A stretch of 64,000 nt of DNA, from the NCBI GenBank assembly GCA_038049695.1, contig CP142452.1:35080501-35144500 (forward strand), in the 5' to 3' direction. Positions 25,968 to 61,201 of this stretch are shown piece by piece. The notes under the pieces were generated by a model. It had not been told where the DNA came from. It ran no database searches and saw only the letters and a program-made list of their open reading frames with translations. The stretch's first letter is position 1. Each line of letters begins with the position of its first letter. The stretch comes from Cinnamomum chago (Eukaryota; Streptophyta; Magnoliopsida; Laurales; Lauraceae). A program made the translations under genes and the position numbers.

Positions 25968-25969
<2 letters not shown>

Positions 25970-26008
<39 letters not shown>
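25970..26008. repeat. (TA)n microsatellite
   Basis: About 18 TA dinucleotides between the palindrome and MITE copy 3. Confidence 0.95.
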
Positions 26009-26009
<1 letters not shown>

Positions 26010-26010
<1 letters not shown>

Positions 26011-27075: not shown

Positions 27076-27384
27076 ACACCCGAATTCATATCCGTGTCCT
27101 AGATTTTCCAAAGTGAGGAGTCATATTCCCAATCCCCGTATCAATGTCTGTATCCATAACCGTATCTAGGCATCATAGGTAATAACATATAACAATAATC
27201 ATTTATATTATCATCATAATCATTAGTATTGACTTCCATATGGCTTTTCCTCTAGTAATGATTAAGAGAATTACATTAACAAGAGGAAACACGCACTAAT
27301 GTGGATAGAGATTGAAGAAAACCAACAACCTATCTTCATAGATATATGAAAATGACCAAAGTCATGTTAAAACATTGATGTCAA

Positions 27385-28453: not shown

Positions 28454-29264
28454 TGTGTGGGGAGTTTTCTTAAGAGAAGGATTACATGGTCTCGGTAGCA
28501 ATACCAGCTCAGTGTATCCCGATCTCGATATCCAAGTTCGGCCACAACGCCAAGATCCATCTAGCTCGGTAACGGTACCAGCTAGACGTCTCATCTCAAC
28601 TCAGCTAACAGTGCCAGCTTGTACCGAGCTTGAGCCAGTCTCAGTAAGAGTACCAACTGGACTCACCTCGGCAATAGTGTCAGGATGCACCGAACCCGGC
28701 CTCAGTACCATCCTCAGCTCGGTCCGTCCACAGGGATGGGTACTAGGTCATCATTGTACTTCCCTGAAGTGATGGCTTCGTTGCAAAACGTGCTAACAGA
28801 CAAGATAGGCGTCGGATGGTGGTCAGGTGTCGCCTTGATCGATCATATACGCATTAATACCAGGGGTCATCTCTTGATTCGACCTGACAGTATTTCCACA
28901 TACTCCCACTAAGGGTGCGCCGGGTGAAACCTCTACATATAGAGCAATACCAATGACTTCTAAGGTATGGAAAAACAAACTATGAATTAATGAATTCATG
29001 ACTAATGCCATCATACAATGCATAGCGCGTTACAGAACGCCTTGCATAAGAGCATACTGGCCTCTCATCTCCATCCTTTGTTCAGTGACAGCACTAACTC
29101 AGGCATCGGAGAGCCTTCGGCTGACGGCAGCCAGGGCCTCTGATCTCTATTTCTTCTCTCCTTTCAGGTCCTAAGGCGGTCTATCTTCCCTAAAGAAGCT
29201 TACACAGCGAATCACCAGTCTCATACGAACCTAAATCTAGGTCCTGAACTTTTAGGCACCCATA
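28454..29264 (+). repeat. 5' LTR of the Tat-like element
   Basis: 811 bp similar to 34319-35141 along its whole length with scattered substitutions and a few indels, so the insertion is older than the copia at 42245. Both copies contain the words CGGTAGCAATACCAGCTCAG and GGGTCATCTCTTGATTCGAC. Confidence 0.9.
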
Positions 29265-34318: not shown

Positions 34319-35141
34319 TGTGTGGGGAGTTTTCTTAAGAGAAGTATTACATTGGTCTCGGTAGCAATACCAGCTCAGTGCATCCCGATCTCGGTATCCA
34401 AGTTCGGCCACAACGCCAAGATTCATCTAGCTCGGCAACGGTACAGCTAGACGTCTCACGTCTCATCTCAGCTCGGCTAACAGTGTCAGCTTGTACCGAG
34501 CTTGAGCCAGCCTCGGAAAGCCTCGACCTCGGTATAGGGCACCTCGGCAATAGTGTCAGGATGCATCTGAACACGGCCTCAGTACCATCCTCAGCTCGGT
34601 CCGTCCACAGGGATGGGTAGTAGGTCATCATTGTACTTCCATGAAGTTAAGGCTTCGTTGCAGAACGTGCTAACAGACAAGACAGGCGCCGAATGGTGGT
34701 CAGGTGTCGCCTTGATCGATCACATCCGCATTAATACCAGGGGTCATCTCTTGATTCGACCTGACAGTATTTCCACCTACTCCCACTAAGGGTGCGCTGG
34801 GTGAAACCTCTACATATAGAGCAATACCAATGACTTCTAAGGTATGGAAAAACAAACTATGAATTAATGAATTCATGACTAATGTCATCATACAATGCAT
34901 AGCGCATTACAGAACGCCTTGCATAAGAGCATACTGGCCTCTCATCTCCATCCTTTGTTCAGTGACAACACTAACTCAAGCATCGGAGAGCCTTCGGCTA
35001 ACGACAGTCAGGGTCTCTGATTTTTGTTTCTTCTCTCCTTTCAGGTCTTAAAGCGGTCTATCTTCCCCAAAGAAGCTTACACAGCGAATCACCAATCTCA
35101 TACTAACCTAAATCTGGATCCTGAACTTTTAGGCACCCACA
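34319..35141 (+). repeat. 3' LTR of the Tat-like element
   Basis: 823 bp, preceded by the purine-rich tract GAGCTAGGGGGCAAT and ending CACCCACA before the GGTAC target duplication. Confidence 0.9.
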
Positions 35142-35649: not shown

Positions 35650-36500
35650 GAGAAAACACCCAGATTGAAATTGATGTAAAACCATGATAGAGATGCAAGG
35701 GAAATTGACTCTTCTGAAGATTTAAGATAAAGCAGAAGAAATCCATATATGGGACCCACTGCAAACCAAACAGAATAGAACCCAGTCCCAGATGTGAATT
35801 AGAGTTAACACGCATCAAAGATGCAATAAAAATGGATTCTTTCGCAGATATACGGTAAAACAGAAAGGCCGAGATAGAATCTGAATAGGATCTATGAGGT
35901 CAGCCAAAGCAACCCAAATTTGAAATTTGAATTGATGTAAAACGGATCAGAGACCAGTAAACAACCATTCTTCTGCAGAGTTACGGTAACACGGGTGAAA
36001 CCTAGATGTCAATTAAAGTAAAACCAATAAAGCATACAATGAAAATTTACTCTTTATGAAAATTCACGGTATAATAGAAGAAACGCTTATAGAAACTAAC
36101 ACAGAATTAGCGGATCCAGCCGAAAGCAAAACTGATGTAAACCGAATCAGAGATACAATAAAATCCGATTCATTAGCCGATTTAAAGTAAAATGGAAGAA
36201 GCCCAGATGCAAATCTGATGTAAACGAATCGGAAATCAACTAAAATCACCCAGATTCACGAAAATCAAAAGAAACCCAGATAGAATCTAATACAGATTTA
36301 GCGAATTTGCGATCTACACAAAAACAGAAGCAGCCCAGATGTGAATTTCTCGTAAACAGATTAGATATCAACTAAAATCGATTCTCCTGCTAATTAACGG
36401 TAAAACAAAAGAACCCCAGACAAAATGTGATACGAATTTAGTGAATCTGCAGATTTACACAAAAACAGAAGAAAAGAAACCCAGATAGAATCTGATGGGG
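35650..36500. repeat. Degenerate minisatellite in the 5' part of the DES1 intron
   Basis: Six or so imperfect units of about 110-130 bp share CCCAGAT.TGAATT, TGATGTAAAAC.GATCAGAGA and TACGGTAAAACAGAAG words. No coding capacity. The region 35147-35650 between it and the LTR element shows no feature. Confidence 0.55.
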
Positions 36501-36598
36501 AAATGCGAATAGCCCAAAACCACATTCAATAATCCAGACCAACCCCAAAGAACAATGTTGCATTCTTCATCAGAAAAACAAAGAGAGAACTCAATTAC

Positions 36599-36754
36599 CT
36601 TGAGAAACGCCCATGGATCTGGACCAAAGAGCTCTTTGATTTGGGGGTATTGAGAGAGGATCTGACGCCTCCGAGAAGCGTGCGGTTCGTCCGTGTACGA
36701 CCAGAAGAAGTCTGTCGCCATTACACCTTCCTCTCCGTCTTCTCTTCCTCCCAT
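36599..36754 (-). CDS. DES1: Sphingolipid delta-4 desaturase, exon 1
   Basis: 52 codons from ATG (36754-36752). It contains the invariant DES N-terminal domain: VMATDFFWSYTDEPHASRRR (11-30) and KELFGPDPWAFLK (40-52). The exon ends AAG|GTAATT, in phase with exon 2 at 23428. The first ATG of the frame is used because plant homologues begin with a short acidic leader (here MGGREDGEEG) just before VMATDFFW. The longer frame to 37075 is 5'UTR or promoter translation. Exons 1 and 2 together give the complete protein. Confidence 0.93.
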
Positions 36755-36847
36755 TTCTCTCTCTCTCCGTTTGAGTGAAAGAATAAGAGAAGAGAAGACA
36801 AAGGAGAAGGCGAAGAAAACACGAGGGAAAAATAAAAAGAATGTGCA

Positions 36848-37005
36848 GGGTATACAGAATCCTAGACCGTTGATTGTGATCCAACGGCTAGATTTGTATG
36901 GTATGGGAGAACACGAGGAAACGTTTGAAGAATTTGCAGGGAATATACAGAATCTTAGACCGTTGATCCTGATCCAACGGCTAGATTTGTATGGTATTGT
37001 GGCGG
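36848..37005. repeat. Two-copy 97-bp repeat upstream of DES1
   Basis: ATACAGAATCCTAGACCGTTGA...ATCCAACGGCTAGATTTGTA at 36851-36903 recurs at 36948-37000 with few changes. It lies 95-250 bp upstream of the DES1 start codon, in the 5'UTR or proximal promoter. No clear TATA box was found for DES1. Confidence 0.8.
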
Positions 37006-37107
37006 TCGCAGCATCCGAAATCCAGGCCGTGTCTAAGGAGTAGCGACAGAAACGGACGGAGAGAGTCAGCCTCAAATCTGCTGGCTATTTTTGCCCTGCT
37101 GTTCTGC

Positions 37108-40307: not shown

Positions 40308-40378
40308 CCCTTGTGGGCCCTCAATTTGATTTGAATACTATTTAATATTATTTATTAGCTAATTATATTAATTAGGGG
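40302..40378 (+). repeat. Start of gypsy-like LTR interrupted by CACTA element B
   Basis: The text GTGAGGCCCCACCCC begins a sequence that breaks off at the CACTA end and probably resumes at 61202. Confidence 0.45.
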
Positions 40379-40632
40379 CACTACAAGAAAAATTACATTT
40401 AGCGACGGATAAAAACCGCCACTATATGTATGAAAACTGCCACTAATACCTTTTGCGGCGGAAAAATTTCCGCCGCAACTTTTGTCGTAGAAAATCCCAT
40501 CGCTGATTGTATTTGCAGCGGAAATAGGGATTGCTGCAAAAAAATTATCAATAGCGACGGTTATAAACCGCCACTAATTATTACTGTAACTTATAGCAGC
40601 AGATATCACAAACTGCTGCTAAAAATGTGAGA
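40379..40632. repeat. Left terminal and subterminal repeats of CACTA element B
   Basis: Short inverted GC words (TAGCGACGG, GGCGGAAAAATTTCCGCCGC, AGCAGCAGATATCACAAACT) are typical of transposase-binding subterminal regions. 40640-41580 shows no further feature. Confidence 0.7.
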
Positions 40633-41582
40633 TGTTCCCCATTAATTCATCATAACCATTGATTAAAAGGCCTCAAAGTTTGAACATATCTTTTTATCTT
40701 TGTTTCTTTAGATAAGTTGTATCCATTCAACTAAAAGGGCTGGATGGTTAAGGCAGAAAGTAGTCAAGAGAAAATTAAGCCTAAACAATGAATTGCTAGG
40801 ATCTTCCAATCTGAGAGCTTTTTATAATATCCTCAATTGGTATAATCTATTGCAGCAACTGTTGAACATCAAACCATGGGTCCTAGGTGCATGGAAGAAA
40901 GAACCTGTTATTCCTCCATAATACGATGGTTTTTAATCAGTTCAGGTATTCAAATTGTTACCTGTATTCAAAATGGCACCCAGATGATGCAATACTGTCA
41001 TACCTGTCCCAGTACACTAATTTAAATTATGGGTATCCTAGCAGGCAACTGTAATTCAACTGTGGAAAGCAATAGAACTACCACTGGCCACTAAAAACTT
41101 GAAAAAAATATCCATGTCTTTAAGAAAACATTTGATAGAAGACAATCATATGAAGATCTGGTTCCTTCTGTTTTCATGAAGAGAGCGTGAATCCCATCGA
41201 TAAGGATGAGTAGTTAAAAAAAGGAAATGACAGAAAAACCCCAAAAAATCAAAGTATTGATTATGATTGTGTACTGATAGAATTACACTCTCAGAATGCA
41301 AAGCAATTGAACAAAGAGAAAAAGGAAAGGACACTGGTGAAACAAGCATTATTTTGCAAGTCACCCCACCTCAAGAACAGAGTGAGGTCGGCTTGTTTCT
41401 GCACAAATATTCAAAGATCAGGAACTGAGACATCTGGTATCAGACCTATTTACAGGACAAAAATCTATTTGGCACACCTGTAATTAGAAGAAGCCTTTAT
41501 TCAAGCCTTTTTGAAACTAAAAATTTCTGTGACGATATGCTTTGCTGTGTCTCTCTCTGTGAACCAGAGACGATTTTGCGAG

Positions 41583-42244
41583 CTAAATATGTTCAAATGC
41601 AGCCGCAGTTCTTGGAAAATCCTTACCGTATATATGAGACGCTTGCAACTGCTGCTGTTGGGCTGGATTCCATGCGCTTAGTGTACTGTGGATGGTGGCA
41701 AACTGGCTCTCTGATTTTATCTCACCATACTGATTTTGACTCTAACTTTGGATCCCACTGGTCATTTAGAAGGGGTGAGGGAGGAATTCAGACCATTTGA
41801 TGCCTTCTGGCTCACCTTCTAGATTGATTGGAGCTTCTTTATCTGATGTTAAGTCCGATGACTCGACCCCGGCAATCCGTCAATCCCCAAGAGAAGATGC
41901 TGTTCTCAAAAATTGAGCTGTTACCTTGCAATTCAATGCTACTACTGTTTGCACTGCTGCTGCTGTTACTGGAAGTTCCAGCCTCCCAGTACTGGACTCC
42001 ATTGATATCACTAACACGGGCAATGGAAGAGTTTTCAGGTGGTGGGAGACTAAGATAGGCTTGAAAGCCATTGAAGTTCGAAGGACCGAGCTTGGCAGGG
42101 ATGGTATCGCTGATGGTATAGTTTTAGAATTGAACTCAGAATTTATTTCGAAAGGCCGGCAGTTCTGGTTAAACCAGAGAACTGAATTCGTATTAGCCGA
42201 CAGCCCAACAGAGGACATCTCATTACTGCAATTGGAGTTATAAC
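41583..42244 (-). pseudogene. R2R3-MYB pseudogene, C-terminal half of exon 3
   Basis: Continues the MYB reading frame on the far side of the copia insertion. MSSVGLSANTNSVLWFNQN and the following FNSKTIPSAIPSLPSSV match the C-terminal region of MYB61/MYB50/MYB86-type factors. At about 42055 a 1-base loss shifts the frame. Homology then continues as ENSSIARVSDINGVQYWEAG, and after a second disturbance near 41865 as SDKEAPINLEGEPEGIKWSE. It then meets in-frame stops before the family's QQQQLQASHIYGKDF-like end and TAG at 41583-41585. It is therefore a pseudogene independent of the copia. Confidence 0.85.
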
Positions 42245-42569
42245 TGTAAAAGGATCTATAGATCCTTGTGTTAACTTAGAAAGAGGAGAAGAACCAAAGG
42301 GAGGAAGAAATTGTGAATTCTGTCTTACCCAAAGATGGGAATCGACTTGCGTTTATATACACTTCACTAGTATCAATTTACATGATGATGATATCTTTAC
42401 ATCCTATGATTAGGCTATGATTACAAGCAATTATAGAAATGTCTACACAACCTTCCAAGAAGGGATATTTGACCAATCTACAAGATTCCACACGTGAGAT
42501 ATGCTTGGCTATGGGCTTATGGTTATGGATTTTTCAGGTTGGGTCAGTTGACCTGTTTATATCTCTACA
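42245..42569 (-). repeat. 3' LTR of the copia element
   Basis: 325 bp, TG...CA ends on the plus-strand reading (TGTAAAAGG...CTCTACA). Its substitutions against the other LTR are at 42270 (G/A) and about 42339 (G/A). Confidence 0.95.
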
Positions 42570-45500
42570 CTCCCCCTCAAATTGATGCAGTGTGGAACAA
42601 AGCATCAGTTTGGAAATAATATATTCATGTCGATCCCTGGGCAGCCCTTTTGTAAACACATCGGCTAGTTGATCATGTGAAGGAACATAGGGCAGACAAA
42701 GTTTGTCAGAGACATAATGCTGACGAATGAAGTGGCAGTCAATTTCTATGTGCTTAGTGCGCTCATGGAAGATGGCATTCTTGGCAATGCGAATGGCACT
42801 TGTGTTATCTGCATAAAGTGGAGTAGGGCCTTTGAGAAAAACACCAAACTCACGAAGGAGACGACGAAGCCAAACAATCTCACTACTAGCAGAGGACATA
42901 GACCGATATTCAGCTTCAGCAGTTGATTTTGAAAGAGTGCTTTGTTTCTTACTCTTCCATGAGATGAGCGACGTTCCTAAGAACATGCACCAACCGGTTG
43001 TGGATCTACGAGTGTCGGGGCACCCTGCCCAATCTGCATCGGCATAAGCTTGGAGTTGTAGTGAAGAAGTGGTTGGATAAAACAGTCCTCGATCACGGGT
43101 GCCCTTGACGTACCGAAGAATCCGGAAAACAGCATGGAGATGCGATTTACGAGGATCGCTAAGGAACTGACTGACAGTTTGAACGGCATGAGAGATATCT
43201 GGCCTTGTCATAGTCAGATATAGTAGGCTACCAACCAACCGTCGAAATAGCGTTGGGTCTGGAAGAGTTGGCCCACCGTCTTTGCTAAATTTAACATTGA
43301 GTTCAATGGGTGTGGCAAAGGGTTTGGCATCACCAAGTCTTGCCGATTTGACCAAGTCATCAGCATATTTGGTTTGTACTACTCGAATACCATCCTTGTT
43401 CCTTGAGACTTCGAGTCCTAAAAAGTAAGTGAGAGGACCCAGATCTTTCATCTTGAAGTATTTCATGAGATGGTTTTTCAGGTTGGAAATACCTATTGCA
43501 TCGTTGCCACTGATTATCATATCATCAACATAGACCAGGAGAACAGTACAACCATGCGAAGTTCTTCTAATGAAGAGAGAATTATCATTTGGACTTTGAT
43601 GAAAGTTGGTTGTAATGATAGCAGAGCGGAACTTATCGAACCATGCCCGTGGAGCCTGTTTGAGCCCGTATAAAGACTTTTTCAGTCTGCAAACATGTCG
43701 AGGAGGACATGTATATCCTGGCGGAGGACGCATATACACGATTTCCTTGAGATCACCATGTGAAAAGGCATTCTTGACATCCACTTGCCACAAAGGCCAA
43801 TTCCGAGCTGCTGCGACGCCTAGTAGACATCGCACTGTAGTCATTTTAGCGACAGGGGCAAATGTTTCTTCATAATCAATACCATATTCCTGTTTATAAC
43901 CTTGGGCTACCAATCGTGCTTTGTAGCGATCAATACTGCCATCGGATCTGACTTTTAGTGAATAGACCCACTTGCTTCCAATGATAGATGTATTCGACGG
44001 AAGAGGCACAACGTCCTAAGTGTTGTTCATCTCGAGAGCTAACAATTCATCTGTCATAGCATCTTGCCAACATGGGATATTAGCAGCTTGAGAATAAGAA
44101 GTTGGAATAGGAATGGGATCTGAAGAAGTAAATAACGCGGAAAACCCATACCAATCTAGGGGAACTGAAATACGACTAGAGCGTCGCAAAATAGGATTAC
44201 CTTGATTAGGAGTGTCATATCCTTGAGGAGTCGGCATGGTTGGTTGATAGGTAATGAGAGTAGCTGGAGGCAGAGTAGCTGGAGGCAGATGCTTGGTGCG
44301 CCACTTATAAACTTGAGTAATTGCTGGAGAAGAGTCAGATGCTGGAAAGTGAGGAAGGTAAGAAACTTGGATATTAGGAGGAGGAGAGGAGGAATAGAAT
44401 GGAACATGTTCTAAGAAGACAACATTTCGTGAGATACGTAACCGGCGTTCCTTGTGATCATAACAAAGGAAGCCTTTGTGGTCATCACTGTATCCAAGAA
44501 ACATGCAGCGAGCAGCCTGTGGGGACAATTTGTTTCGCTCAAGGGAAGGGAGATGAACAAAGCATAGACAGCCAAATACCCTCAAATGTGAGTAAGAGGG
44601 TGGGGAACCAAATAAGCACTCAAATGGAGAGACTTTCCCAAGGACAGAGCTAGGAAGTCTGTTTATAATATGCATAGTTGTATGCGCTGCTTCACACCAA
44701 AATTTAGGTGGAACTAGGGATTCAACAAGAAGGGTTCTGACAATTTCTAGAAGGTGTCGATTCTTTCGTTCTGCCATCCCATTCTATTGTGGGGTGTGAG
44801 GGCAAGATTTTTGGTGGAGGATCCCTCGATCAGATAAAAAAGAGGTGAATTCTTTGGATGTGTATTCTCCCCCTGAATCTGAGCGAAGGATCTTAATGGT
44901 CTTTTGAAATTGAGTGCTTACCATATTGTAGAATTGGCAGAACATGGAAAAAACTTCAGATTTAGATTTTAGAAAGTATATCCATGTGTACCTACAATGA
45001 TCATCTATGAATGTAACATAATACTTATATCCAAGTCTACTCAATTGAGGAGCAATGCCCCACACATTTGTATGAATAATATCAAATGGAGCAGTGGCAC
45101 GTGAGTGATGAGAAGAAAAAGGCAACACATGACTTTTACTCAAGCAACAAGTTTCACATTTTGATTTTGCAAAAGAAGAAAACATGGTACTAGTAACAGA
45201 TTTTTCCAAACTACCAAGTTTAAACAATGAAAGCAACTTTGCATTATTCAAATGACCAAGGCATTTATGCCAAATGGTCCATAATTTATTTTGAACTCCC
45301 ACAGAAGAAGCAAACAATGAAGGTTGTCCCATGTCCAAGAGAAAGAGCCTGCCATGCTTACTCCCCTTCCCGATCACCCTCCCAGTTTGCCGTTCCTGTA
45401 TAACACAACCAGAGGGAGAAAAATGAACCAGGAATCCACAATCAACAAGTTGACCAATAGAAATTAGATTAGCTGCCAAATTAGGAACAAAATAAACATC

Positions 45501-46757
45501 AGATAATGTAAAGGTCCCCATGGATATGGTTCCCAGACCAGAAATTGGCAATTGTTGACCATTGGCTGTGGTGATTGAATCATGACCCATGTATGGTTTT
45601 GTGTTGTGCAAATTTTGGGCTACAGAGGTCATATGGTTGGATGCACCAGAGTCTAAAAACCATGTTGAGTGTGTGATAGGTGATGAGAGGGAAGTAGATG
45701 AGTGAAATGCAGGAAGAGTTGTAGAGGAAGACAAACCACTAATACCCATGGAGGTAAATGCAGAGGCCACAGAAGAATTTATCATCTCACGGATCTGAGC
45801 AGTGGTCAGAGTGACTGACCCTGTATCTGAGGATGGCAAGTCAAGCGAAGTGCTTTGTTGAACCTGAAGAGCAGTTGGACCACGCTTTGTAAATTGATCG
45901 GGTTTCTTATCAGGCCTTCGTGTACAATTGGAAATGACGTGACCATTTCTCTTGCAATAGTTGCAAAATAGTTTTCTCCGGCAGTCTCGAGCTACATGAC
46001 CATACTTCTTACATTCATAACACTGTGGTTTTTGTCCACGAGTAGTGAACATGGCTGTCTCATCGACTGATGATGGTGCTGGTTGTGTTAGAAGTGCCTT
46101 TGGGTCTGCATTAAGGGAATGAGTAGATAACATGCGAGTTTCTTCCCGGAGAACCTCTTGGATGCACGTATCTAGATCAGGAGAGATTTCTCTATTCATA
46201 AGAGCGGCTCGCACAGGTTCAAATTCCGATCGAAGGTTCATAAGGAATTGACTAACATGTTGTTCTTCCTGTAATTTGAGGGCTTGAGGAAGAAAAGCTG
46301 CCGAAACAGATTGAAGGAGCATTTGATCCCTCTCAGTCCATAGGGCTAGAAAGCCATTATAGTATTCCTGGACAGATTTATCATTCTGGCAATATCTTGC
46401 TAACTCTGTATCAAGGTGAAATCTTCGGGCCTTGTTTTGCTGATGATAAATTTTCTTCATATGGTTCCACATGTCAGAAGCAGTGATAAAGGCTTGAAGT
46501 GCCATTGAAAAGGAGGGATCTACTGAGTTGAGGATCCATGTTATCACTTTTGCATTGCGTTGGTTCCAAGTAGCAATGGTTTTGTCATCTACAGCAGGTG
46601 TGGTAGATGTGGCAATGGTGCCTGCAATGGGTTTAGGAGTTGTCCCATCCAGATATCCTAACATACCTTGCCCTTCAACAAAATTTTTGAGATGGAAGGA
46701 CCAGGATAGGTAGTTAGTTCCATTAAATTTCACTGGAATGATATCAATCTTGTCCAT
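42534..46757 (-). pseudogene. Copia gag-pol polyprotein with two nonsense codons
   Basis: One frame of 1408 codons from ATG at 46757 (MDKIDIIPVKFNGTNYLSW). In order, it holds a UBN2-type gag, two CCHC knuckles (CYECKKYGHVARDC, CNYCKRNGHVISNC), protease (WFLDSGASNHMT), the GAG-pre-integrase His region (WHKCLGHL), an integrase core (FIDDHCRYTW, RSDSGGEY), reverse transcriptase (YKARLVAQGYKQ, VDVKNAFSHGDL, LLVYVDDMI) and RNase H (AYADADWAGC, KSTAEAEYRSM, ADNTSAI). TAG codons at 44784-44786 (Gln expected before NGMAERK) and 44016-44018 (Trp expected before DVVPLP) break integrase and the integrase/RT junction. Both are single transitions with no frameshift. The frame ends inside the 3' LTR. The upstream ATG at 46880 precedes the family's usual start and is less likely. 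Confidence 0.95.
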
Positions 46758-47518
46758 TTGAAACAGATATATGAATTTCCTGAAAAGAAACCAAATGCAA
46801 AGAAAAATAGGCTGCTGGGCGTCCAAAAAAAAATGGAGCAGGAATGGGGATTTCTTGTTGTGTGTTGATTTTTGTTTCAATCAACCTTCCAAGTTAGATT
46901 AATAACCTACTTTCTCAACTTCTGAAGAAGGAATTTCTCAGTTTCGACAGTTGGATGTGAATATGAAGTAACAAGTTGAAAACTTTCTGTGAAAACTGTC
47001 GAACCCAAAAAGTAGGTATAACACTGACCTTTTGAGATGATAAAATTTCAGAAAAATATGAAGAAATCCCAGAGTAAATAGGCGAGCAACTTGGTGCAGA
47101 AGTTGTGACAGATGCACAATCCGAGGTGGCCCAGTTCTTGATCAGACGGTCAGATCAATAGATAGCCAAAACGGAGATTGGCGTCTCTATTGGGCTGATA
47201 AAATGCCAGAAAATTGTGGGGAAATCCAAGAATAATGGGCGAATCTGATGCTGTAGTTTTCTGCAGATTCGACAATCTGGAGGTGGGGTCCACTGCTTGA
47301 TCAGGTATACAGATGGTTGTTGACTGGTTACAGAATATTGCCAGAGATATCTCCTTGCACAGAATGTGGTTCTAGAAGGCTGAGATGATTCTTCTGCTGA
47401 TCAGAAGCACTGTTGAGATGATCTTTCTTTGATTCAGAGAGAGATGAACAGAGAAAATGTCCTCTGTTGATTACTTAGTCGACTGAACAAAAAGATCCAC
47501 AAAGACAGAGTTGTAGTA

Positions 47519-47530
47519 GCTCTGATACCA
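47519..47530 (-). other. Copia primer-binding site
   Basis: TGGTATCAGAGC immediately inside the 5' LTR, the standard initiator-Met tRNA site of plant copia elements. Confidence 0.92.
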
Positions 47531-47855
47531 TGTAAAAGGATCTATAGATCCTTGTATTAACTTAGAAAGAGGAGAAGAACCAAAGGGAGGAAGAAATTGT
47601 GAATTCTGTCTTACCCAAAGATGAGAATCGACTTGCGTTTATATACACTTCACTAGTATCAATTTACATGATGATGATATCTTTACATCCTATGATTAGG
47701 CTATGATTACAAGCAATTATAGAAATGTCTACACAACCTTCCAAGAAGGGATATTTGACCAATCTACAAGATTCCACACGTGAGATATGCTTGGCTATGG
47801 GCTTATGGTTATGGATTTTTCAGGTTGGGTCAGTTGACCTGTTTATATCTCTACA
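47531..47855 (-). repeat. 5' LTR of the copia element
   Basis: 325 bp, identical to the other LTR except for two bases. A TATA-like TATATA lies in the element's sense direction near 47642. Confidence 0.95.
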
Positions 47856-48297
47856 ATAACTCAACTGCTGAAGAGGGAAATAGCCCATGGAATCCGAAGG
47901 CCTGTTGCTGGTTGAGCTTTCATGGCTTGTTAAGAACCTCTCCAGGAGGAATTCCTTGGTGGGCGTAGTTGAATTGCCCACACTAGTGTTGATCTTGGAG
48001 GTGAAACAATCAAATGGATATGGGTCAACTGCCATCAGTGAAGGCTTCTGCTCTGGGACCCCCAGCTTGGAATCCTCTATAGTGGAAGTTGAGGTTAGGA
48101 GTTTCAGTTCCTTGGATCCTGATGCCTTCTCAGTTTTGATAGGTGGCTTATCCTCTCTGTTCTCGACCTCTGATAACGGTTTATGTGTGTTTGGGTCAAT
48201 GCCTCTCTGCCTCAGCTTCTTTTTAATGCATGAATTCCACAGGTTCTTGATTTCATTATCAGTTCTTCCAGGAAGCTGTGTAGCAATCTGAGACCAC
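47856..48297 (-). pseudogene. R2R3-MYB pseudogene, exon 3 5' part (second half of R3)
   Basis: Starts after TTCCTCAG with [20 protein letters not shown] and continues [20 protein letters not shown], the end of repeat R3 and the signature linker of subgroup-13 (MYB61/50/86) factors. It is open to ...[10 protein letters not shown], where the copia interrupts it at the ATAAC duplication. The reading frame resumes at 42244. Normal MYB61-type proteins are nuclear activators of cell-wall and stomatal genes; this copy cannot make one. Confidence 0.9.
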
Positions 48298-48693
48298 CTG
48301 AGGAAGTTAAAACAAAGGGAAAAACCTCAGAAATTTGTAGAAATTCTAATACAACAAAATCTTGTTGACTGCTTTCAGATCATGAGAAAAAGAATTTTCT
48401 TTTTCTGAGAAGCAAATAGAAGGTTCATTGATCAAAACAAAAACATCGAAAATAGGAACAGTCAATCAAGATAAGACCGCAACCTCAAACAAGTAGAGAA
48501 CATGTTACAACTGTACTGTGTTTCCAAATTCCAATCACGGCACCTGATCTAGTCACTGCTGGTTTTGCAAAAGCATCAGCTTCTCATTCCATTCGCCGAG
48601 GGATACATTCAAGGAACAATGGAGACTTAATCTTCAGAAAATAACTTGTAAATATTTTTTTTTCTGGTCATGAGATAGGGAAACAAAGATTAC

Positions 48694-48790
48694 CTGTTGC
48701 CTAAGACTGCATGGAGTTCGATTATCAGGTTCTCTTCTTGTGGTGAAAATGCACCCCTTTTCAAATCAGGCCTCAAGTATAATGTCTGCT
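48694..48790 (-). pseudogene. R2R3-MYB pseudogene, exon 2 (start of R3)
   Basis: Encodes [19 protein letters not shown] and IELHAVLGN, ending AACAG|GTAATC; the split Arg codon is completed by exon 3. The expected CRLRWIN before YLRP is largely missing: only CAGACATTA remains after CTGCAG, a small deletion. Exon 1 (repeat R2) is not found up to the next gene fragment at 49504. The MYB copy is therefore truncated as well as interrupted. Confidence 0.85.
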
Positions 48791-49503
48791 GCAGCAATGG
48801 TAGGGTAATTCCTCTGATATTTTATTAGAGAAGAAACAGCAGGATTTAAACCCATGCTTGCAAGTTGTGAAAGTAATACTGAACATCCAACAAATGGGGA
48901 AAATCTTTCAAATGTTGTGCAAAGATTGTGGGTTAAACCATCTCCATCTATCTACTTCTCTGCATAGTACAAATGGAGAATCAGGTCGGTCATCCATTCT
49001 CCTAGATCATAAGTAGCACATATGGAAGATATATGTCATCAGGTTAAAGCAGTCTGGGATCATTTTGTAAATTAGACTAGTGTCTGCTCAAACTATAACT
49101 GGGTCTTATGATCAATTGAAGATTGAGAGGAATACGGGAGTACATGATCCAATATGAAACCAAGCTTGGAATCATCATCAGACCAGCTCTCAGCTACAGA
49201 ATGGTACCCAGAGTAAGCATTCTATGTGATCTTCCACTTCCAGGATTAAAAAAAAAAAAAAAAAAACCATCATCATCATCTAAGCATATTATCAATCTTG
49301 GGTAGGCAATATTAGGTCTTGGTGGAACAGATAAATACCCCACAAAGACGAGACAGACATATCCATACACTGTCAAGTACCCATCTCTGTTCTGATAAAA
49401 GATCTGAAGATAAGCTTCATAATGGGATGATTCAACATGGGAGGGAAAATAATTTAAACAACAGAATCTTATATAATATTTAAATATGTATTTTTAGGAA
49501 AGT

Positions 49504-49553
49504 GTCCATAGATCATCACAGAGATTTTACCCACGGGAAACAGAAGCTGCAAA
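49504..49553 (-). pseudogene. LIFEGUARD/BI-1-like gene fragment, later exon (truncated)
   Basis: After GATTTTGCAG the frame reads LLFPVGKISVMIYG, the loop and transmembrane start that follows the exon at 49727 in plant LIFEGUARD proteins. Homology stops abruptly after ATGGACAC near 49504, which marks a truncation breakpoint next to the MYB fragment. Confidence 0.75.
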
Positions 49554-49726
49554 ATCACAGACAAATATTGTTTCAAATGGATCCCTTGGGGCTAAAACAC
49601 TGCAAAATATACTAAGCAAGTTTGCAGGATGTCTTTGTACTTTCTCATCTTTTTAATATATTTGGTTACGATTAAAAAGTAAAAAGAAAAAGGGAGGGTG
49701 AATCATCAGCAAAACATCTAATTTAC

Positions 49727-49883
49727 CTGGACCATAACAAAGACTATTAGCACCATGATTCCAGCAAATAAGAATGGCCCAAGGAAGTGAAAATCATGGC
49801 CCTGCCTAGCCGCCTAGAATGTGTAAAGGTGAGGCTTACCACCACCACAGCTGTCAGGATCACAAATTCTAATACAACCTTCC
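49727..49883 (-). pseudogene. LIFEGUARD/BI-1-like gene fragment, transmembrane exon
   Basis: Bounded by AAACAG|GGAAGG and GTCCAG|GTAAAT. It encodes KVVLEFVILTAVVVVSLT, then, after a one-base loss, YTF, a stop, and AARQGHDFHFLGPFLFAGI with MVLIVFVMVQ. This is the LIFEGUARD (BAX-inhibitor-like, TMBIM) family: multi-span membrane proteins that restrain cell death. The family has Trp where TAG stands (TTCTAGGCGG). Frameshift plus stop make it a pseudogene. No upstream exon was found. Confidence 0.82.
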
Positions 49884-49889
49884 CTGTTT

Positions 49890-51579
49890 AGAATTGAAAC
49901 AATGAAAACACAGAATCAGAAAAAGGTAAAATCGACTAGTATATAAAAACCGAACAAAACAAGATTAAATATCATCAAAAACACAAGAACAGAGAGACTA
50001 CCAGAAATCTGTCATAGATTCTACCAAACAAATTTCAAAAAGATGATTGAAACAGGTTTTTTTTTTTAAAAAAAAAAAAACTACAATGACTCCAGCAGCA
50101 TTTAGCTTTGATCATTTTTAATACATTCTCGGCTTCAACCATTTCTAGTAAACTCAATGTGGATGGCTGAGATCAATAAAAGCAACTAATATAGACTGCA
50201 AAGCCAACCACGACTTAGCCGTGACAGAAGTATCAGATTCCTAAGGAAAACAGAGCCAAAACATGATTGGAATGAAATCCTAGAGAAATAAAAAAAGAAC
50301 GGAAACCAAATTGTAGTTGATAGCACAAAAGCAGGAAGTGAAACCAGTGGAGAGGGAGAAGTGGAATATCTGTTATCAACAGTGAGTGGAAAAACAACTT
50401 GGATGTCCTTTACCACTAATTAATTAAGTAGTTTACTACGATATTGCTTATCCACAAAAAAGAAAGCTAGAAAATGACCTGCTTTTCGTGACAATTACTA
50501 CCTCCTTTGTCTGTAGTGTCGCTCCTTATCATGATTTTATACATAAAAAGAAGATAGTTATTGACATGAATAATCAACTCCATTTTAAGATTGAGTAGCT
50601 TTGATCTCCACAGCTGGTTTGGGTCCTAGTCATGAATTTTGATGCACATCAAAACTGGACACATTTGGATAATGAAGGCCACATACAGGATTTTGGGGTT
50701 CTGACTTCTGAAAACTCCAATGCTAAAGTAAGACTAACATACTAATATATCTGCTATTATTTAGCAAAAGTTACTGTTCATAAAAAAAAACGACTTCCAT
50801 ACATGGTCTTTATTGATATCATGGCTAGTAACACCCTAAAACAATTTATAGACATAATCCTTGGGTGTAAAAGATCTAACACCTTTCTCCTCACCCCCAT
50901 AAAATCACTGGTTAATTGTAAATATTATACAAAGAAACTCATAATTTCTAATCATGAATACAAAAAAATAGTACTTGTATACAGCTCATGAAATTCTTGA
51001 GGGTAAAAAGGCCATCCTGTAAATTATGGATACAAAAAAATACAAGATACAGCCGGCCACTACAGTTTCAAGAGGCCAAAAATCAACATCACTTCACACC
51101 CCAACAACTGAGAATAATTTCTTATTACCTCGCATACCCTCCCCGGTTAGAAATGGATGATAATGAGATGTTAGCATTTAGTGATGGTGGTCATAAGATA
51201 AGATCTACAGTTGTCAGTGTTGATACCTGTTTAAGTTTTCAGCAGTTGGTGAATTCCATTATTTTTCTCTGATCCAGTCCTAATCCCATGAGCAGGTTCC
51301 AAAGGTTTCTGTGTACAATTGGTTGTTAGCCATAAATCAGATGTGACCAAACTAGTGTAAAAATTAAGCAATATTAGGTGTGACCAATCTTGATAGTTTC
51401 ACATGACGAATAAATCGCTTAGATTCCTAAAAGATAGGTAACACCATTATCATTCCCTGGCTGAACAAAAAAGAAAGTGTCCCCTCTGAGACCCTTTTAA
51501 CATGAATTATCAAAAGATGTTTTTTTTTTAAATTAATTATCAAAAGCTGTTATGCACATGACTCATACATTGTACTTAC
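49890..51579. other. Non-coding cargo of CACTA element B
   Basis: AT-rich DNA without recognisable exons. The minus-strand text near 51230-51310 might be a further exon of the unidentified gene, but no motif supports it. Confidence 0.35.
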
Positions 51580-51693
51580 CAAAAGCCTATATTGACTGAG
51601 AATGCGCAAGTAGGTTCGGTTACTATTGTTACTTATGGCTTCTTCTATCATATCTTGAAGTTGGCACCTGTGCTTCTCATTTACCGCAATCTC
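51580..51693 (-). pseudogene. Unidentified gene fragment, exon U2
   Basis: 38 codons exactly framed by CTTGTAG|GAG and TTTTG|GTAAGT. It encodes [20 protein letters not shown], then [18 protein letters not shown]. It is in phase with U1 and has no stop. The translation is hydrophilic and helical (coiled-coil-like). I do not recognise the family. Confidence 0.6.
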
Positions 51694-51778
51694 CTACAAG
51701 AAACAGAAGTTAATATCATATGTATAGTCAAAAGAGAGAAAATGTAGATTGGCAACCAAAAAACTAAAACGAATTCAC

Positions 51779-51883
51779 CTTCTGGTAATTGATCCCAGCC
51801 TCATCATTGTCACGGATGTTATCAAGAATAATCTGCCGCCTCGCTCTTAGAGCCTGTACGACTGCTCCATCCTTTTCAATGGC
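51779..51883 (-). pseudogene. Unidentified gene fragment, exon U1
   Basis: 35 codons framed by CTATATAG|GCC and CAGAAG|GTGAAT. It encodes [20 protein letters not shown] and [15 protein letters not shown]. Clean splice sites, matching phase with U2 and non-repetitive codons argue for real exons of a host gene, captured by the CACTA element. The protein is unknown to me; it could be a helical region of a large nuclear or scaffold protein. Confidence 0.6.
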
Positions 51884-52679
51884 CTATATAGAGCAGAGAC
51901 ACCAGTGCTTCATTAGTCTAGTTACTCTAGTAGTCAACTTTGAAACTACTAGCATTCACACCGATATCTAAGACCAGATTTGAGTTAACTGAGATGCATA
52001 ACCAAACACAGGAATGCCTTCTCAATAGTCTGTTTTAAGAGTACTTACTAATTTCCAGAACAATCACTATCCTACAGAACAAGGCAGAAAAGTAGAAGCC
52101 CACTTGCTTTGGATTCTAATTCATGCAAGAACCACAGGCTGTACCCACTGGGGTTGCATCCAATTATAGACATGCATTCCCAAAAGCCCTCCACCCCACC
52201 TTCAATTCAAAAACCCATGGAAGTAGTGCAAAAGGGAAGGCGAAATTAAATTATTAAATTGAAGGCCAGTTTCTACAAATGGACACAAAACATATGCCAT
52301 GAACAATGATGGTATTGGTATCTCATGATAGGGAAATCTTTAACAAGTCCAGGCTGTTTGATTGAAATTTCTTGTATGGTAATTGTTGAGTATGTAGAGC
52401 ATTCTAAGAATCCTAGTACCTACGATGTAAAATCTTCTTCCCTATCATAATTTCAGAAGACAGCTGAAGGCTCATCTAGATATTTCCTAGTTTAGTTGTC
52501 ACCTTCTAGTCGCAAGCAATCAACCTGTGTAATTACCACATGTTAGTCACGCACCAAAATTACATGTATGAACAATACATGTGCCACATAATATGAAATT
52601 TTGTGAGTGAGAGAGCAATGTCTATGACAAGATTAAAAAATAATCAGGGAATCGGTAAATAGGTAGACTATATAAAACA

Positions 52680-53080
52680 TTTTCCTACTAAAGAATTCAT
52701 GGAAAAGTTGAACAATAAGAAAAAATTTACTATTGATTTTGAGTTAAAGAAGACCTCTGATAAAGTGCCAGGGCAGTTAACTCCAAAGGCATTGAAGAAA
52801 AAAGGCATCCTCAATGTTATATTAAATGAATCTACACAAGAATTGCATGGGAAGGTCATGAGTGTACTGGTTTGAGGAGACGGGTGAGTTCTCAATTGAT
52901 GTTAGATGGTGCCAAGTGTCCACTTTAGCCCAATTTGCTTGGTTATGTACAACTTTCCAGGTGATATCCAATTTAAGGTTCCTTGCTATATGTTGTTTAC
53001 TGATAATGTAGTACTAACCGGTCAACTAAGAAAGCAGGTAGATGATACACTGTTGAAGAAAGCCTTTAGAAAATACCCAA
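52680..53080 (+). pseudogene. LINE reverse-transcriptase fragment
   Basis: Shifting frames give SDKVPGQL-like text (cf. YDRVPR in LINE RT), then VPCYMLFTDNVVLTGQ, equivalent to the catalytic FADD block where the aspartates have become TD-N. Stops and frameshifts are frequent. It is a short, old fragment in the opposite orientation to the captured gene pieces. Confidence 0.7.
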
Positions 53081-53099
53081 CAGGTTCTTCCATAAGATT

Positions 53100-54938
53100 G
53101 ACTATTGATTGAAATTGTGATTAATACGATCTTATGCATATCATTGGACACTTTTTTTTATCAAATGTCTAATTAATCATATGGTTGGACTGACTTCAAG
53201 ATACCTAATAAAGAGAGAGATTTTATTTTGATCAACTCACATTTTCAATAGTTAAGTCCACTGTAGGATTACATCCTTTCTAAGAATTGCATTCTATGAA
53301 CTTTTTATCTTGGGTGGTGGGGTGTACAGCTTGTAACCAACCCCTTCTCAAAGTGTTTTTCAGGTAATAGAAGTACTTTTCTTGTTTAGAGGTGCCATTA
53401 GTGTAATGTGACGCATCAATGGAAGAGAACATCCCATCGCTCGACACGTGCAATGAGTGATCACTATCATTGGGGCCCACCCAAGCAACCATTTTGATGC
53501 CTATCTTTTGTTTGCTTCTCTGTCATTGCATGTCTTGCGGGGCAAAGACATAGCAATACATGCGTGAGCCATCAAAGATAATGACATTCTTGAAAACTTC
53601 AATTGTACATGTTTGAGCACTCTCACCAACCAATCCATTAATGCACATGACCAGGGACCATTCAAATGATCAAATGGTCCAATTCACTTTAAACTGTATA
53701 TTTCATTTTGATAGTGAATTGACCAGTCGAGCTCTATGCCAGCTGTGTTACGAGGGCCAAACTATTACTTTGTTACTTAAATTTTGCCAATCAAAGTGAT
53801 CTTTTCTTCAACTTCAGCTTTAGAAAAGATCCAAAAGCTTGAAAGAAGAAAGAAGGAAAAAAAAAAAAAAAGTGGAAGAGAAATGATACAGGGAGAGAGA
53901 TGATACAGGGTGAGAGAGGAACAAGAAGAGGAACGTGGAAATAACTGGTGTTAATTAGGTGCCAACCTTCAGGGCTACAAACAGTACTGTTTTTATAGAA
54001 GAGTGAAAAAGGACTTGGACTTCTCTGACTGGCTCTTTAACCTACTTGGTTCTTTATTTTTTTAAACTGTGTTATTTGTGGTCATGGCATTTTCCTTTAT
54101 TTTGAATGATGTCTTTCCTTCTAACCAAAAGAAAGAAGGGACTAAGCTAAAAGCAACAGTAAGGCACTTCTTGAAGTATGTAACAGATTTAGAAGATAGA
54201 GAAATCCGTCTCTGCATTATAGGAATATGTTCTTATTTTTTAAATATAGTAAGTATCCTTGGGATATTTGACCCAACAGGACCAATCTCCTGGGTGGCCC
54301 CTCTAAACTCACTCAAATGCACATCGGATAAATTTTAGACAGCTTCCAACACAAGAGAGCAAACCCACGCCTTGTGCCCCTCTACCAATTCGTAAGCGGG
54401 TACATAGTAGAAATACGTCAATCCAGTAATCTAATTATTTCAAAACCAAACAGATCTTGGATGTGCCAATTGTGTGCAATTCTACTTTGCGACATCTACT
54501 TTTTTTAGGCTACTATAATAGGTAGAATGTATACTCACCACCCGACTGTATTTTGGAAATTTTAAGGGTTCAAGTTAGCAATCTTTAATTTCCAAGTTGG
54601 GTTAGGGTTCAAAATGTCAGTCTGGTAAAAAGAATTTATCTATAGTTGATTTCAGGTTTATTCTATACATGTTGCCCAGAATATTCAACATGGCTCCAAC
54701 TTGACCTCACCTATTACCATCCCAATTCCTCCGAAATTTGTAGAGTATCAGGTTCTATTTGCTGCGTTTTAGTCTAGATATTCTCTTCCATCATTAACAC
54801 AATTAGTTAATGACAACAGGCAAAGGAAAACTATGTAAAAAAAAAAAAAAAAATCATCGCAAATAGAGTTGAGCATACCAAATTAGTTAAAGAAATAGTA
54901 GGATTTTTTTCCAATCATCAAGAACGTTAAGTGCATAC
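53100..54938. other. Non-coding cargo of CACTA element B
   Basis: No gene recognised. Short frames such as 54069-54338 have no family resemblance. Confidence 0.4.
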
Positions 54939-55100
54939 CTTCATCTCCCAGAAATTGAACTTCCACCCTGGGGTCCTCTGTTCTGAGTCATCCACTTTAA
55001 CTCTAAATCCTGTTGTTTTCAGTATCTTCTCCACAGATGGTACAGCATTCAGAACTCCTGTTTTTTCATCAGCAGTCTTCCAAATTGGCACAATTACCAC
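54939..55100 (-). pseudogene. Prolyl-tRNA synthetase fragment, exon B
   Basis: 54 codons between TATCAG and GTATGC. They encode VVIVPIWKTADEKTGVLNA, then VKVDDSEQRTPGWKFNFWEM, the anticodon-binding-side region that follows the class II catalytic core of plant ProRS. The enzyme charges tRNA-Pro. There is no stop, but the flanking exons (GVPLRIE onward) are absent, so this is an isolated piece with exon A. Confidence 0.88.
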
Positions 55101-55888
55101 CTGATAATGAGAGAATGACATATCACACCTACGCCATATCATGTTAATGAACAAAATACATGGGTGAGTTTTTAGAAAGACCACATAAAATACATATGTT
55201 CAATCATATCACTCTAGTGAATAAGAAGCACAGGACAGCAATTTTTGTCTGCAGGTAGATTGGCTTAAATGCAAAGACAGACTTTTACCCACATGTATGA
55301 TGCACAAATTAATAGGTATATTAAGCTGATATTTGTTCTTTACAATAAATAAATAAATAACAATTAAACACATTAGTTGCTCAATTTAAATGCTGAGCAA
55401 GCTTATGATCATATTTTAGAAAACGCTACAAACTCCATACATCAAAGCCATACTTTGATAAAAGGTTAGCTCTTCACTTTCATAAATACGCCAATATGCA
55501 TGATAAATTCTGTTATAGAAAGATAGTAACCCTAAAAAAATCACACAATAGGGATAAGTTTGTCCAGTTCTGAAATGCTTACTAATTACATCTGTACTTC
55601 CACATTTCTGGAGCTCCCAAGATGGTAGAACCTCTTAACCAGTTGTGTATAAGATTCCTAAACAAGAAGTCTTGTTCTACACAGACAGGCTTTTCTAACG
55701 CAAAACTATGTGTTACTCATACTAGTTAAAGTAACAGAAATGTCTAAGAAGCAACATAGAAAAGATGTTCATTAAGAGAATGATTCTCAATTAAATATAC
55801 ATCCATTAGGAACCAAGTGATTAACCAACTAATTGTTGACATGTTTAGTAGTAATAGCAGAGTAATGAATAGAATGGAATCAGAACTA

Positions 55889-58311
<2,423 letters not shown>

Positions 58312-58316
58312 CTGGA

Positions 58317-60014
58317 TGTTGGAATATAGGTGGGCCATTCAGATAGGTTTCAAAAACTTTTGACCCACTTGATGCAGGGATCAACTATCTAGAAGGCAAT
58401 AAACCCAATCCAGGATGTAATCCCTCAAACTCATAAACCATGTACAGCAACATAACCTATCTAGAAGATAGAAAATAGCACATAAACATGCAGCCACAAA
58501 ATCCACAACATACAAGGATGTAGATATACCTTTGGAGCTTGGTAGTGCTCTAATGGAGGCTTTGAGTTCTTTCCTTGATGATGAACACCTTCACTAATCA
58601 AATCAGAATCTCCAACACCCTTTGATCTTCCACGCTATGTCCCATATCAGATTCTCTTTTCTCAAGAAGATGGTGGGATCTCCAAGAGAAAAACCCTAAA
58701 GGAAACTAGAAGAGAAACTAGAAGAGAGAGTAGATCCAAGGGCTCTCCTCTTCTCCTTTTATAGCATTGAAGCCACCTCCTCTTACTAATTGAAATAGAA
58801 GTCTTACTTCCACTACAATTAGTTGCTTACTAAGTCACAATTAGAAGTCTCACTTCAAATATGATTAGTAACTTCCTCTTTTACCAATTAAAATAGAAGT
58901 CCTACTTCCATTAATAATTAGTAACTTACTATTACCACTAATAGAAGTCTCACTTCAAATAGAAATAGTAACTTTCTATTTTCTTTTAGAGTTCTACTAT
59001 AATTAGTATCTTTCTAATATATTGGGCTAGCGTGGGGACCACCAGGGATTCCTTAGAAAGCTGGCTCCAACTGGAACACGCGACCCCACATCTCATGTGC
59101 AATCCGGGCCCACAGTTAATTGCAAATAACTCCACTATATAAATGCAATTGCACTCCAATCTTAGGAATATATTTCAATGAAGACCCTAAACTTCCCAAT
59201 TACCACAAGTAGGCCCCTCCATCATTATCCATGGATCAATTGGAATAAATCTGTCTCATCCAATATTAGATCCACATCTTATTATCCTTGAGCCCCAATT
59301 AATTATAGTAATCATTTGGTACCGATCCAATTAACTCTTAATCGGAATGGGTGCGCACTTACCAATGATAAATCCATTAATTGGCACAAGGGGATAATGT
59401 AGATAGATTCCATCTTGATCATTGCATGTTCCCACAGTCCTACTACCACGTACCCAAGACACCGAGGTGTTGACCTACAGTTGGCCTCACTCATTGGTGA
59501 CTCAAAGCAAATGAATAGACAGAAACTTGAGTTCATCAATGTCTCAGGATTGAGAGTCTATTGCTAGGGAATTATGAGAGCATTCCTTAAATCGAGACAG
59601 TATTTCATAAGGTGCTTCTCATGGTCCTTCAATACATCCAATGTACCAGCACCGTGATCCAGAATCTTACATTCTGATGATCGAGACAAATCACACTATC
59701 TCATAGTGATCAAAGTGCTACAACCTTGTCAGATGAGATGCCCAATCTCATCACTGGTTGTGAAGATATTTTAAGTATAAGATTTGTGACACATATCTCC
59801 CGTATGTGGATCTCATCCATATACATATATCACATCTAATATACTAATGGGACCCGGTTCATCTCATGAACCACTATGTCATATATATTGGTCATGTGTA
59901 TTAAGTAATAAATCACCATTCATCTCATGAAAGGAAAGCATGATTATATTGATAAATAAAGAAATTAATCAATCTATTCATCATATACTAGTATTGAGAC
60001 CATAAAATCTAACA
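58317..60014 (-). mobile_element. Solo LTR, family A, with target duplication
   Basis: 1698 bp, read on plus as TGTTGGAATAT...AATCTAACA, flanked by CTGGA at 58312-58316 and 60015-60019. It is the reverse-oriented relative of the solo LTR at 6595-8213. A TATA box (GCTATAAAAGG on minus, near 58753) confirms the orientation. It sits inside CACTA element B. Confidence 0.9.
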
Positions 60015-60309
60015 CTGGAAACATATGGAGAGACGCTAGAAAGCGATTTGTGAGAAGAAAAAAAAAAGGTACTCTGCAGATAGTCGAAGATCGGAAAATA
60101 TGCAGGGAAGTAGGTCTTACCTTCTTCTTCTTCTTCTTTTCAACTGCTGGAAGCTCCAAACAAAGATAAGGGTTTTGGGGAAGAGAGATCTCAAAGATCG
60201 AAGATCGACCGAAAAATGCAGTGAAGTAGGTCGATCAGGTCTTTGGCTTCTGCTTCTTCTTTTCCGATGTCGATCAGGTCTGCAACCTCAAAGCTGCTGG
60301 AAGCTCCAA

Positions 60310-60545
60310 ACAAATCAACCAATGTGTAGATTAGGGTTTTGGGGAAGAGATCTCAGAGATTAGGGTTTTGGGGAAGACGAAGAGAGGTTTTGGGACTGGA
60401 CGACGAGATAAGAGGATGGATTAGGGTTTTGGGGAAGACTGTCGAGGCTTTGGATTAGGGTTTTGGGGAAGACTATCGAGGTTTTGGATTAGGGAGTGAA
60501 GAAGACTATCGAGGTTTTGGATTAGGCAGTGAAGATAGGTTTTGG
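60310..60545 (-). repeat. Tandem GATTAGGGTTTTGGGGAAGA repeats
   Basis: About five imperfect units of 40-55 bp close to the right end of CACTA element B. On the minus strand they read CTTCCCCAAAACCCTAATC, like a repeated gene leader. This is probably a promoter-proximal region of the element. Confidence 0.7.
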
Positions 60546-60559
60546 ATAGGTTTAAACGC

Positions 60560-61198
60560 ATGGAAACGTATAGCATGGGAGTGAAGAGCGCATAGCAGCG
60601 GAATGTACTTTCCGCTGCTATATACGTGTATAACGGTAGTGGCATTTACAGTACAACTGCTAAGATATATAGTGACATACTATATTTACCGCTGCTATAC
60701 GTATGGTTGTAAGTTGTATTTGATGTAGTGACGGAATATACTTTCCGTTGCTATATATATACCTAAATAGTGGATGTAGTGACGGAATATACTTTCTGCT
60801 GCTATATGTAGTAAAAGTGTATTTGAAGTAGTGACGGAATATATGTTCTGCTATTATACGTAAAATAAGTAAAAGTTTGAAATAGTGATGGATGTAGTGA
60901 CAGAATATATTTTTCGTCGCTATAATTAAGTGTTTATAGTGGCATAATACATTTTCCGCTGCTATACATATGTTTTCAATATATACAAATACGTTTATAG
61001 CAGCAAAGTATAATTTCTGCCGCTATATATTAACAAAAACCCTCTTCAATAGCAGCACAATACAATTTCCATTGCAATATGTGCTTATTAGCAGCAAAAT
61101 ACATTTTCCGCCACTGTACTCACCATAATATTAGATGTAGTGATGGACAAATAAACCGCCGCTATGAACCGCCGCTAATTATCAATTTTCTTGTAGTG
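60560..61198. repeat. Right terminal and subterminal repeats of CACTA element B
   Basis: More than ten copies of GTAGTGACGGAATATA and TTTCCGCTGCTATA words in both orientations end in CCGCCGCTAATTATCAATTT and CTTGTAGTG. They match the left subterminal region in composition and sequence. Confidence 0.78.
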
Positions 61199-61201
61199 GG
61201 G

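Follow-up and report, generated by a model that had tools for sequence, protein, structure and literature searches.

We analysed a 64,000-nucleotide stretch of Cinnamomum chago DNA (the window) and searched an assembly of 1.06 Gb in 14 contigs with parts of it. Positions 40379-61198 of the window hold a single CACTA insertion, 13,501 bp long when a copia retrotransposon and a solo LTR that entered later are left out. The 13-bp terminal inverted repeat CACTACAAGAAAA is present with 13 of 13 bases at the left end (40379-40391, plus strand) and at the right end (61186-61198, minus strand), and the flanks read GGG on either side (40376-40378 and 61199-61201), a 3-bp target site duplication (TSD). 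With at most one mismatch allowed, CACTACAAGAAAA matched the window three times against 0.24 expected, a count reached in 0 of 100 shuffles; genome-wide it has 1190 + 1231 exact sites, against 52 + 50 for a reversed control. The flanks themselves are part of a high-copy repeat. When both were joined with one GGG retained and used as a query, 40 places were scored among 2034 candidates, two of them the element's own two flanks, and all 38 non-self scored matches were contiguous over the join at 81-92% identity. Four of these empty sites were read: L066 and L069 are exact around the join and carry a single GGG, and at L067 and L068 the sequence runs on through the join with minor differences. 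Because the ends are identical, GGG stands on both sides and the other flank matches are uninterrupted, we conclude that 40379-61198 is one insertion. An earlier note, made from the sequence of this DNA, had claimed that matching ends and GGG bound one element and had proposed a genome search for empty sites; the claim holds, and the sites exist.

The element has the traits of the CACTA (En/Spm) superfamily, namely inverted ends that start with CACTA, a 3-bp TSD, subterminal repeats and tnp2-type relatives. Ten copies of a 31-nt subterminal unit lie at the right end (60593-61119) and the left end is like the left ends of other elements, in agreement with the matching subterminal words reported before. 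It also has the trait of Pack-CACTA elements, with host gene pieces between the ends and transposase absent inside: when the retroelement insertions were excluded, no transposase family was found in the minus frames (Pfam, E 0.1) or the plus frames (E 0.01). We take CACTACAAGAAAA to be the end sequence of maize En/Spm, from which the window copy differs in containing no transposase.

The cargo consists of minus-strand, intron-containing pieces of five genes: MYB, LIFEGUARD/BI-1-like, kinesin, prolyl-tRNA synthetase (ProRS) and GILT. The search for parental genes that had been suggested found, for four of the five, host loci in this genome whose DNA is 93-99% identical to the pieces, and ProRS was without a close host. 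These host genes sit on other contigs (C10, C3 and C1). No Pfam family was detected on the plus strand in any of nine frames (E 0.01), which bears out the placing of all pieces on the minus strand of the element. The earlier note had counted four genes, one of them without a name; that one is probably the kinesin, and GILT makes a fifth.

The MYB locus piece (40755-48882, minus strand), previously recognised as such and identified here by Pfam PF00249, is collinear with a host locus at C10:73.63 Mb (L030) when the copia element and a 622-bp internal deletion relative to the host, at 48779/48780, are left out. It holds exon 3, intron 2 (48296-48710) and the end of exon 2, and is 97.3% identical to the host over 2425 aligned positions and 99.0% over 103. 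The LIFEGUARD/BI-1-like piece (49505-51255, minus strand) is 96.2% identical over 1458 positions and 97.8% over 273 to a host at C3:97.58 Mb (L021), which has a paralogue at C2:18.04 Mb (L022); the host match spans 49505-51237, and the final 18 bp are common with the lineage called A below. The piece itself gave no Pfam match, and the name already proposed for it is supported by the host peptide, which matches YetJ (E 2.8e-08). The stretch with the kinesin piece (51252-53071, minus strand) has its host at C1:105.13 Mb (L024/L049), with the match visible to 52498 and identities of 98.4% over 62 and 96.3% over 1189 positions. An 85-bp intron is retained in this piece, which is about 260 bp short at 51310-51314 in comparison with both the host and the related element at C8:59.69 Mb. 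Neither PDB search nor Pfam gave a match to the piece alone; it is named via the collinear host gene, an upstream exon of which matches kinesins (E 7.7e-14), with KIF4 as the best PDB matches. Its class is presumably KIN-8.

Two further host-derived stretches follow, an apparently non-coding one at 53065-53905 (C11:30.13 Mb, 95%) and one at 53916-54834 (C7:61.25 Mb, L032, 96%) that has no domain at the Pfam cut-off; both are missing from the related elements on C8 and C3. The ProRS piece (54868-56423, minus strand; exons 54939-55112 and 55904-56032) scores 20.9 bits for PF03129 against a cut-off of 21, and its identity, as the earlier note had it, is supported by a PDB search (E 9.2e-10). When the whole assembly was searched for a ProRS host gene, element-like copies made up 5 of 6 and 6 of 6 exon matches, and apart from these there was one diverged gene (C12:19679180, 42%). 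The matching copy at C1:114.46 Mb was counted as element-like while not seen bounded by ends; the assembly may be incomplete for the host. The GILT piece (56861-57772, minus strand; domain 57086-57169) scores 22.4 bits for PF03227, equal to the cut-off of 22.4. Its host is probably the locus at C3:10.657 Mb, where stretches that resemble the element at 93% and 96% adjoin a GILT exon. Locus L037 was also considered as GILT host and rejected, because there is an element right end about 5 kb away from it.

The edges of the captured pieces fall inside exons and introns. MYB intron 2 is kept with its GT..AG borders, 404 of 412 bases being the same in the host. Since the retained introns, this one and that of the kinesin piece, match the host, it was DNA that was captured and not spliced RNA, as had been argued from the survival of introns. 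The cargo is broken and probably without protein function; judged from the sequence, read-through into chimeric transcripts is possible.

Two retroelements lie within the element, as previously claimed. The copia retrotransposon (42245-47855, minus strand; TSD ATAAC) has LTRs of 325 bp each (42245-42569 and 47531-47855) that are 99.4% alike, and its reading frame is broken by two in-frame stops. It inserted in the last MYB exon, and relatives uninterrupted by it are L010, L029 and L030. The solo LTR (58317-60014; TSD CTGGA) is absent from relatives that include L012, L017, L020, L023, L025, L026, L033 and L036, and has relatives of its own within the window at 6593-8212 and 20472-20800. The first of these (region 6550-8281) is placed between 45-bp direct repeats, 93% alike, which far exceed the length of an ordinary LTR target duplication.

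Several other features were seen in the window. A tandem array with a unit of about 172 bp occupies 17343-19391, and GTCGG-rich tandem repeats at 19770-20472 end in a CACTA-type right end, CACTACAAGAAAC (20460-20472, minus strand), which cuts an LTR copy; a simple pattern search from 19001 found no left end for it. Large imperfect inverted repeats at 24562-27108 (25196-26379 against itself, 65%) may be a fold-back element. FA_desaturase and Lipid_DES domains at 22595-23518 and 36458-37084, both on the minus strand, probably belong to one gene for a sphingolipid delta-4 desaturase that extends over some 14 kb and whose parts are separated by an LTR-flanked repeat (28454-29262 and 34319-35139, 92%). 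This putative gene has the CACTA element about 3 kb upstream of it.

In order to place the element among its relatives, its interior (47856-58290) was used as a query. Of 322 candidates 39 were scored, and the 77 matches obtained showed hard break points. The left cargo up to 51255 is common to copies on C11, C7, C2 and C12 and at C8:61.57 Mb, and the right cargo from 51252 is common to copies at C8:59.69 Mb and C3:122.38 Mb. The element is thus made up of one lineage, A, over 40379-51255 and another, B, over 51252-61198, which meet at an overlap of AATT (51252-51255) that falls inside the cargo of both. Complete copies of lineage A were found at C11:10137284-10148803 (TSD CCA) and C2:52909943-52918733 (TSD CCT), and complete copies of lineage B at C8:59690874-59700817 (TSD TTT), C5:30174401-30180232 (TSD TGG) and C3:122381697-122391728 (TSD absent). 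For the C11 copy there were two candidate right ends, 10146699 and 10148803, of which the one with a fitting TSD was taken. Overall, a TSD was present in six of the seven elements for which both flanks were read (GGG in the window, TTT, TGG, CCA, CCT and TGT), the C3 copy being the one without. Lineage A carries MYB and LIFEGUARD-like pieces, to which the C11 copy adds START and Clp_N pieces, and lineage B carries kinesin, ProRS and GILT pieces and the right end.

It can be seen in 500-bp bins that the element is 96.4-99.4% identical to the C11 copy over 40379-51255 and is then unlike it until the terminal repeats (71.5%). Against the C8 copy at 59.69 Mb only the left 247 bp align (86.2%) before the joint, and from the joint to the right end identity is 96.8-100% where aligned; 53072-54867 is in neither copy. 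Past the position of the joint the C11 copy still has LIFEGUARD-locus sequence (its positions 5170-5245 equal L022 at 100%), and before it the C8 copy has host-collinear kinesin sequence (its positions 1218-1335 equal L024). Because A runs on in LIFEGUARD and B enters from kinesin, the fusion came after both captures. When 300 bp around the joint (51106-51405) were used as a query, there were 24 matches, of which one, the element's own, crosses; 12 end exactly at 51255, four start exactly at 51252 and seven lie to one side. The fused form is therefore present as one copy in the searched assembly, and both lineages are present as several copies with TSDs. The AATT would be microhomology at the joint, which is suggestive and not proof: overlaps of at least 4 bp occurred in 2.1% of 200,000 random C11/C8 joints, weak statistics for one overlap. 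The lineage B stretches that are missing from the window element gave no families in nine frames.

The two halves come from two lineages and the cargo was therefore not gathered by one element. The earlier view that one element holds all of the cargo is correct in that there was a single insertion, but its halves were fused from lineages A and B. The earlier note had named two ends from different elements as a finding that would speak against it; the ends do differ in descent, yet what lies between them is a single insertion whose empty sites are contiguous.

Both terminal regions, the left terminal and subterminal region (40379-40625, plus strand) and, solo LTR apart, the right terminal region (58018-61198, minus strand), are common to elements with other cargo. 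The outer right 200 bp are 95.4-96.8% identical to the lineage B copies on C8, C3 and C5 and 79.6-79.7% to the lineage A copies on C11 and C2. The outer left 205 bp are 95.1% identical to C11 and 91.5% to C2 (both A), and 88.1-90.7% to C8, C3 and C5 (B), so that the left end separates the lineages weakly (91.5% for C2 of A against 90.7% for C5 of B); because of this a second switch inside the left terminus is possible. With the right end as query, 40 of 227 candidates were scored and yielded 82 matches, and five places, the window element included, were at least 94% alike over nearly the whole right end. Other elements with these termini, which had been proposed as a check, are thus found both as complete A and B copies and as right-end relatives. 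Among other relatives the cargo modules occur in varied combinations.

Taken together, these observations lead us to regard the element as a non-autonomous Pack-CACTA that arose by fusion of two gene-fragment-carrying elements, to which we assign a probability of roughly 0.8. An A element and a B element would have lain near each other in the same orientation, and a deletion would have joined them at AATT. The transposase of an autonomous relative could then have used the outer left end of A and the outer right end of B to move the hybrid to its present site, and the copia and the second LTR element would have entered after the fusion. We infer this order of deletion and transposition. The joint query 51106-51405, the one search made for neighbouring A and B elements, found none.

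The same hybrid could have formed by repair, if a break in a resident B element was filled by copying from an A element elsewhere, with switches at AATT and near the left end. Adjacency of A and B is then not required, template switching at microhomology has been reported for animal Pack-TIR elements in the part of PMC8277862 available to us, relatives share their cargo modules in many combinations, and the MYB and kinesin pieces have internal deletions. However, two switches are required, and the outer left end is nearer to C11 than to any B copy. We therefore consider repair in place possible but the less probable route; deletion between neighbours followed by transposition is favoured over it.

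The shared strand of the pieces, which the earlier note had held to be notable, could mean that pieces in sense with the promoter end are preferentially captured or retained. In right-end relatives the CACTA transposase reads away from the right end; Transposase_21 was found in three members in sense frames and in none antisense, and Transpos_assoc in five sense members and one antisense, exactly placed only in L052. Because these domains lie in sense frames, the right end would be the promoter end, and on the minus strand a putative first exon with a donor site was seen by eye near 60121. The seven genes recognised in lineages A and B, START and Clp_N of C11 among them, are all in sense, as is the relatives' transposase. 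We also scored host families (E 0.001) at 14 further loci that have the right end in common with the element, with Transposase_21, Transpos_assoc, DUF4218, DUF4216, Transposase_24, MULE, DBD_Tnp_Mut, Transposase_mut, SWIM, FAR1 and ZSWIM domains dropped as those of transposable elements. These loci split into four sense (p450, HAUS1, FPP and LRR_14) and four antisense families (K_trans, GH16/XET_C, GH14 and LRR), a count in which the left end lay within the fetched stretch in 5 of 14 loci and some of the families may fall outside elements. Six loci have a KUP-type piece in antisense (by Pfam in one), and the complete element C1:1725209-1733406, with both ends and TSD TGT, carries P450 in sense and XTH antisense. 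A strand rule for the family was rejected on the 4 to 4 split and this mixed element, which contradict a strict rule; such a preference is unlikely, although a looser bias may exist. Shared strand is a feature of lineages A and B, not a family-wide one, and soybean Tgm-Express1 provides a precedent for it. At L056, a right-type CACTA end at oriented position 5553 adjoins the start of likeness to L055 and L057, and is perhaps another element abutting.

It is very improbable that the fused element is ancestral and that A and B are its deletion products. The ends are common to all three and the cargo order is compatible with this, but the extra LIFEGUARD of A past the joint and the extra kinesin of B before it are both host-collinear and would need later gain, the right end of lineage A differs, and matches stop at 51255 or start at 51252 with one copy crossing. 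That two separate elements or unrelated ends flank ordinary host pseudogenes finds some footing in how common CACTACAAGAAAA is, but with the other scored flank matches all contiguous, a single GGG in two of the four read and the host genes on other contigs, it is hardly credible.

Fusion of two gene-carrying elements thus remains the preferred reading, and the element is a well-resolved case of a kind already published. That CACTA elements capture genes and that neighbouring Pack elements fuse has been described in the parts of PMC8903248, PMC1947982, PMC13317346, PMC5105172, PMC8978399 and PMC8277862 available to us. As in Pack-CACTA, non-autonomous CACTA ends surround captured gene pieces, and as in the Pack-TYPE fusion model (Catoni et al., 2019, as cited; Gisby and Catoni, 2022, PMC8903248; review PMC13317346, in the parts available) the outer ends come from two elements and the inner ends are lost, clearly so on the right and less so on the left. 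Section 9 of PMC8903248 describes rice Pack-Mariner 'AB' elements as fusions, with similar CACTA examples. Unlike the published Pack fusions, both partners here were already multi-gene carriers, the joint, which falls within two captured genes, is narrowed down to 4 bp, and no host DNA is retained between the partners.

Tgm-Express1 of soybean is likewise a CACTA element with five host gene fragments and introns kept; in the available part of PMC1947982 the fragments are spliced as exons in transcripts of one promoter and the introns are spliceable in one direction, so the fragments would share one strand. According to the same text it differs in being 5.7 kb long, situated in a gene intron and transcribed, and a two-lineage fusion is not described there. 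The Tpn1 family of Japanese morning glory (Kawasaki and Nitasaka, 2004, cited in PMC5105172) is also En/Spm-type, with a 3-bp TSD, conserved ends and an interior replaced by host genic sequence; the available text of PMC5105172 gives 339 copies and does not mention fusion of two cargo sets. Because the longest of these reaches 40,619 bp, the size of the window element is not unusual.

Whether multi-gene cargo in cut-and-paste elements comes about by tandem fusion or by template switching is still argued. In the present case the hybrid occurs in one genome together with both parental lineages and the host loci of four of the five genes, and because of this the order of events, from capture through fusion in cargo to retroelement insertion, can be read. 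Same-strand pieces in one element need not reflect capture by that element or a strand-biased process. More tentatively, at somewhat less than even odds, the CACTA elements of this genome may form a recombining pool in which multi-gene sets come mainly from shuffling of pieces that elements already contain and not from fresh capture. If so, the window element would be a recent recombinant with both parental lineages still present, and the gene pieces would be modules that elements exchange through fusion and template switching.
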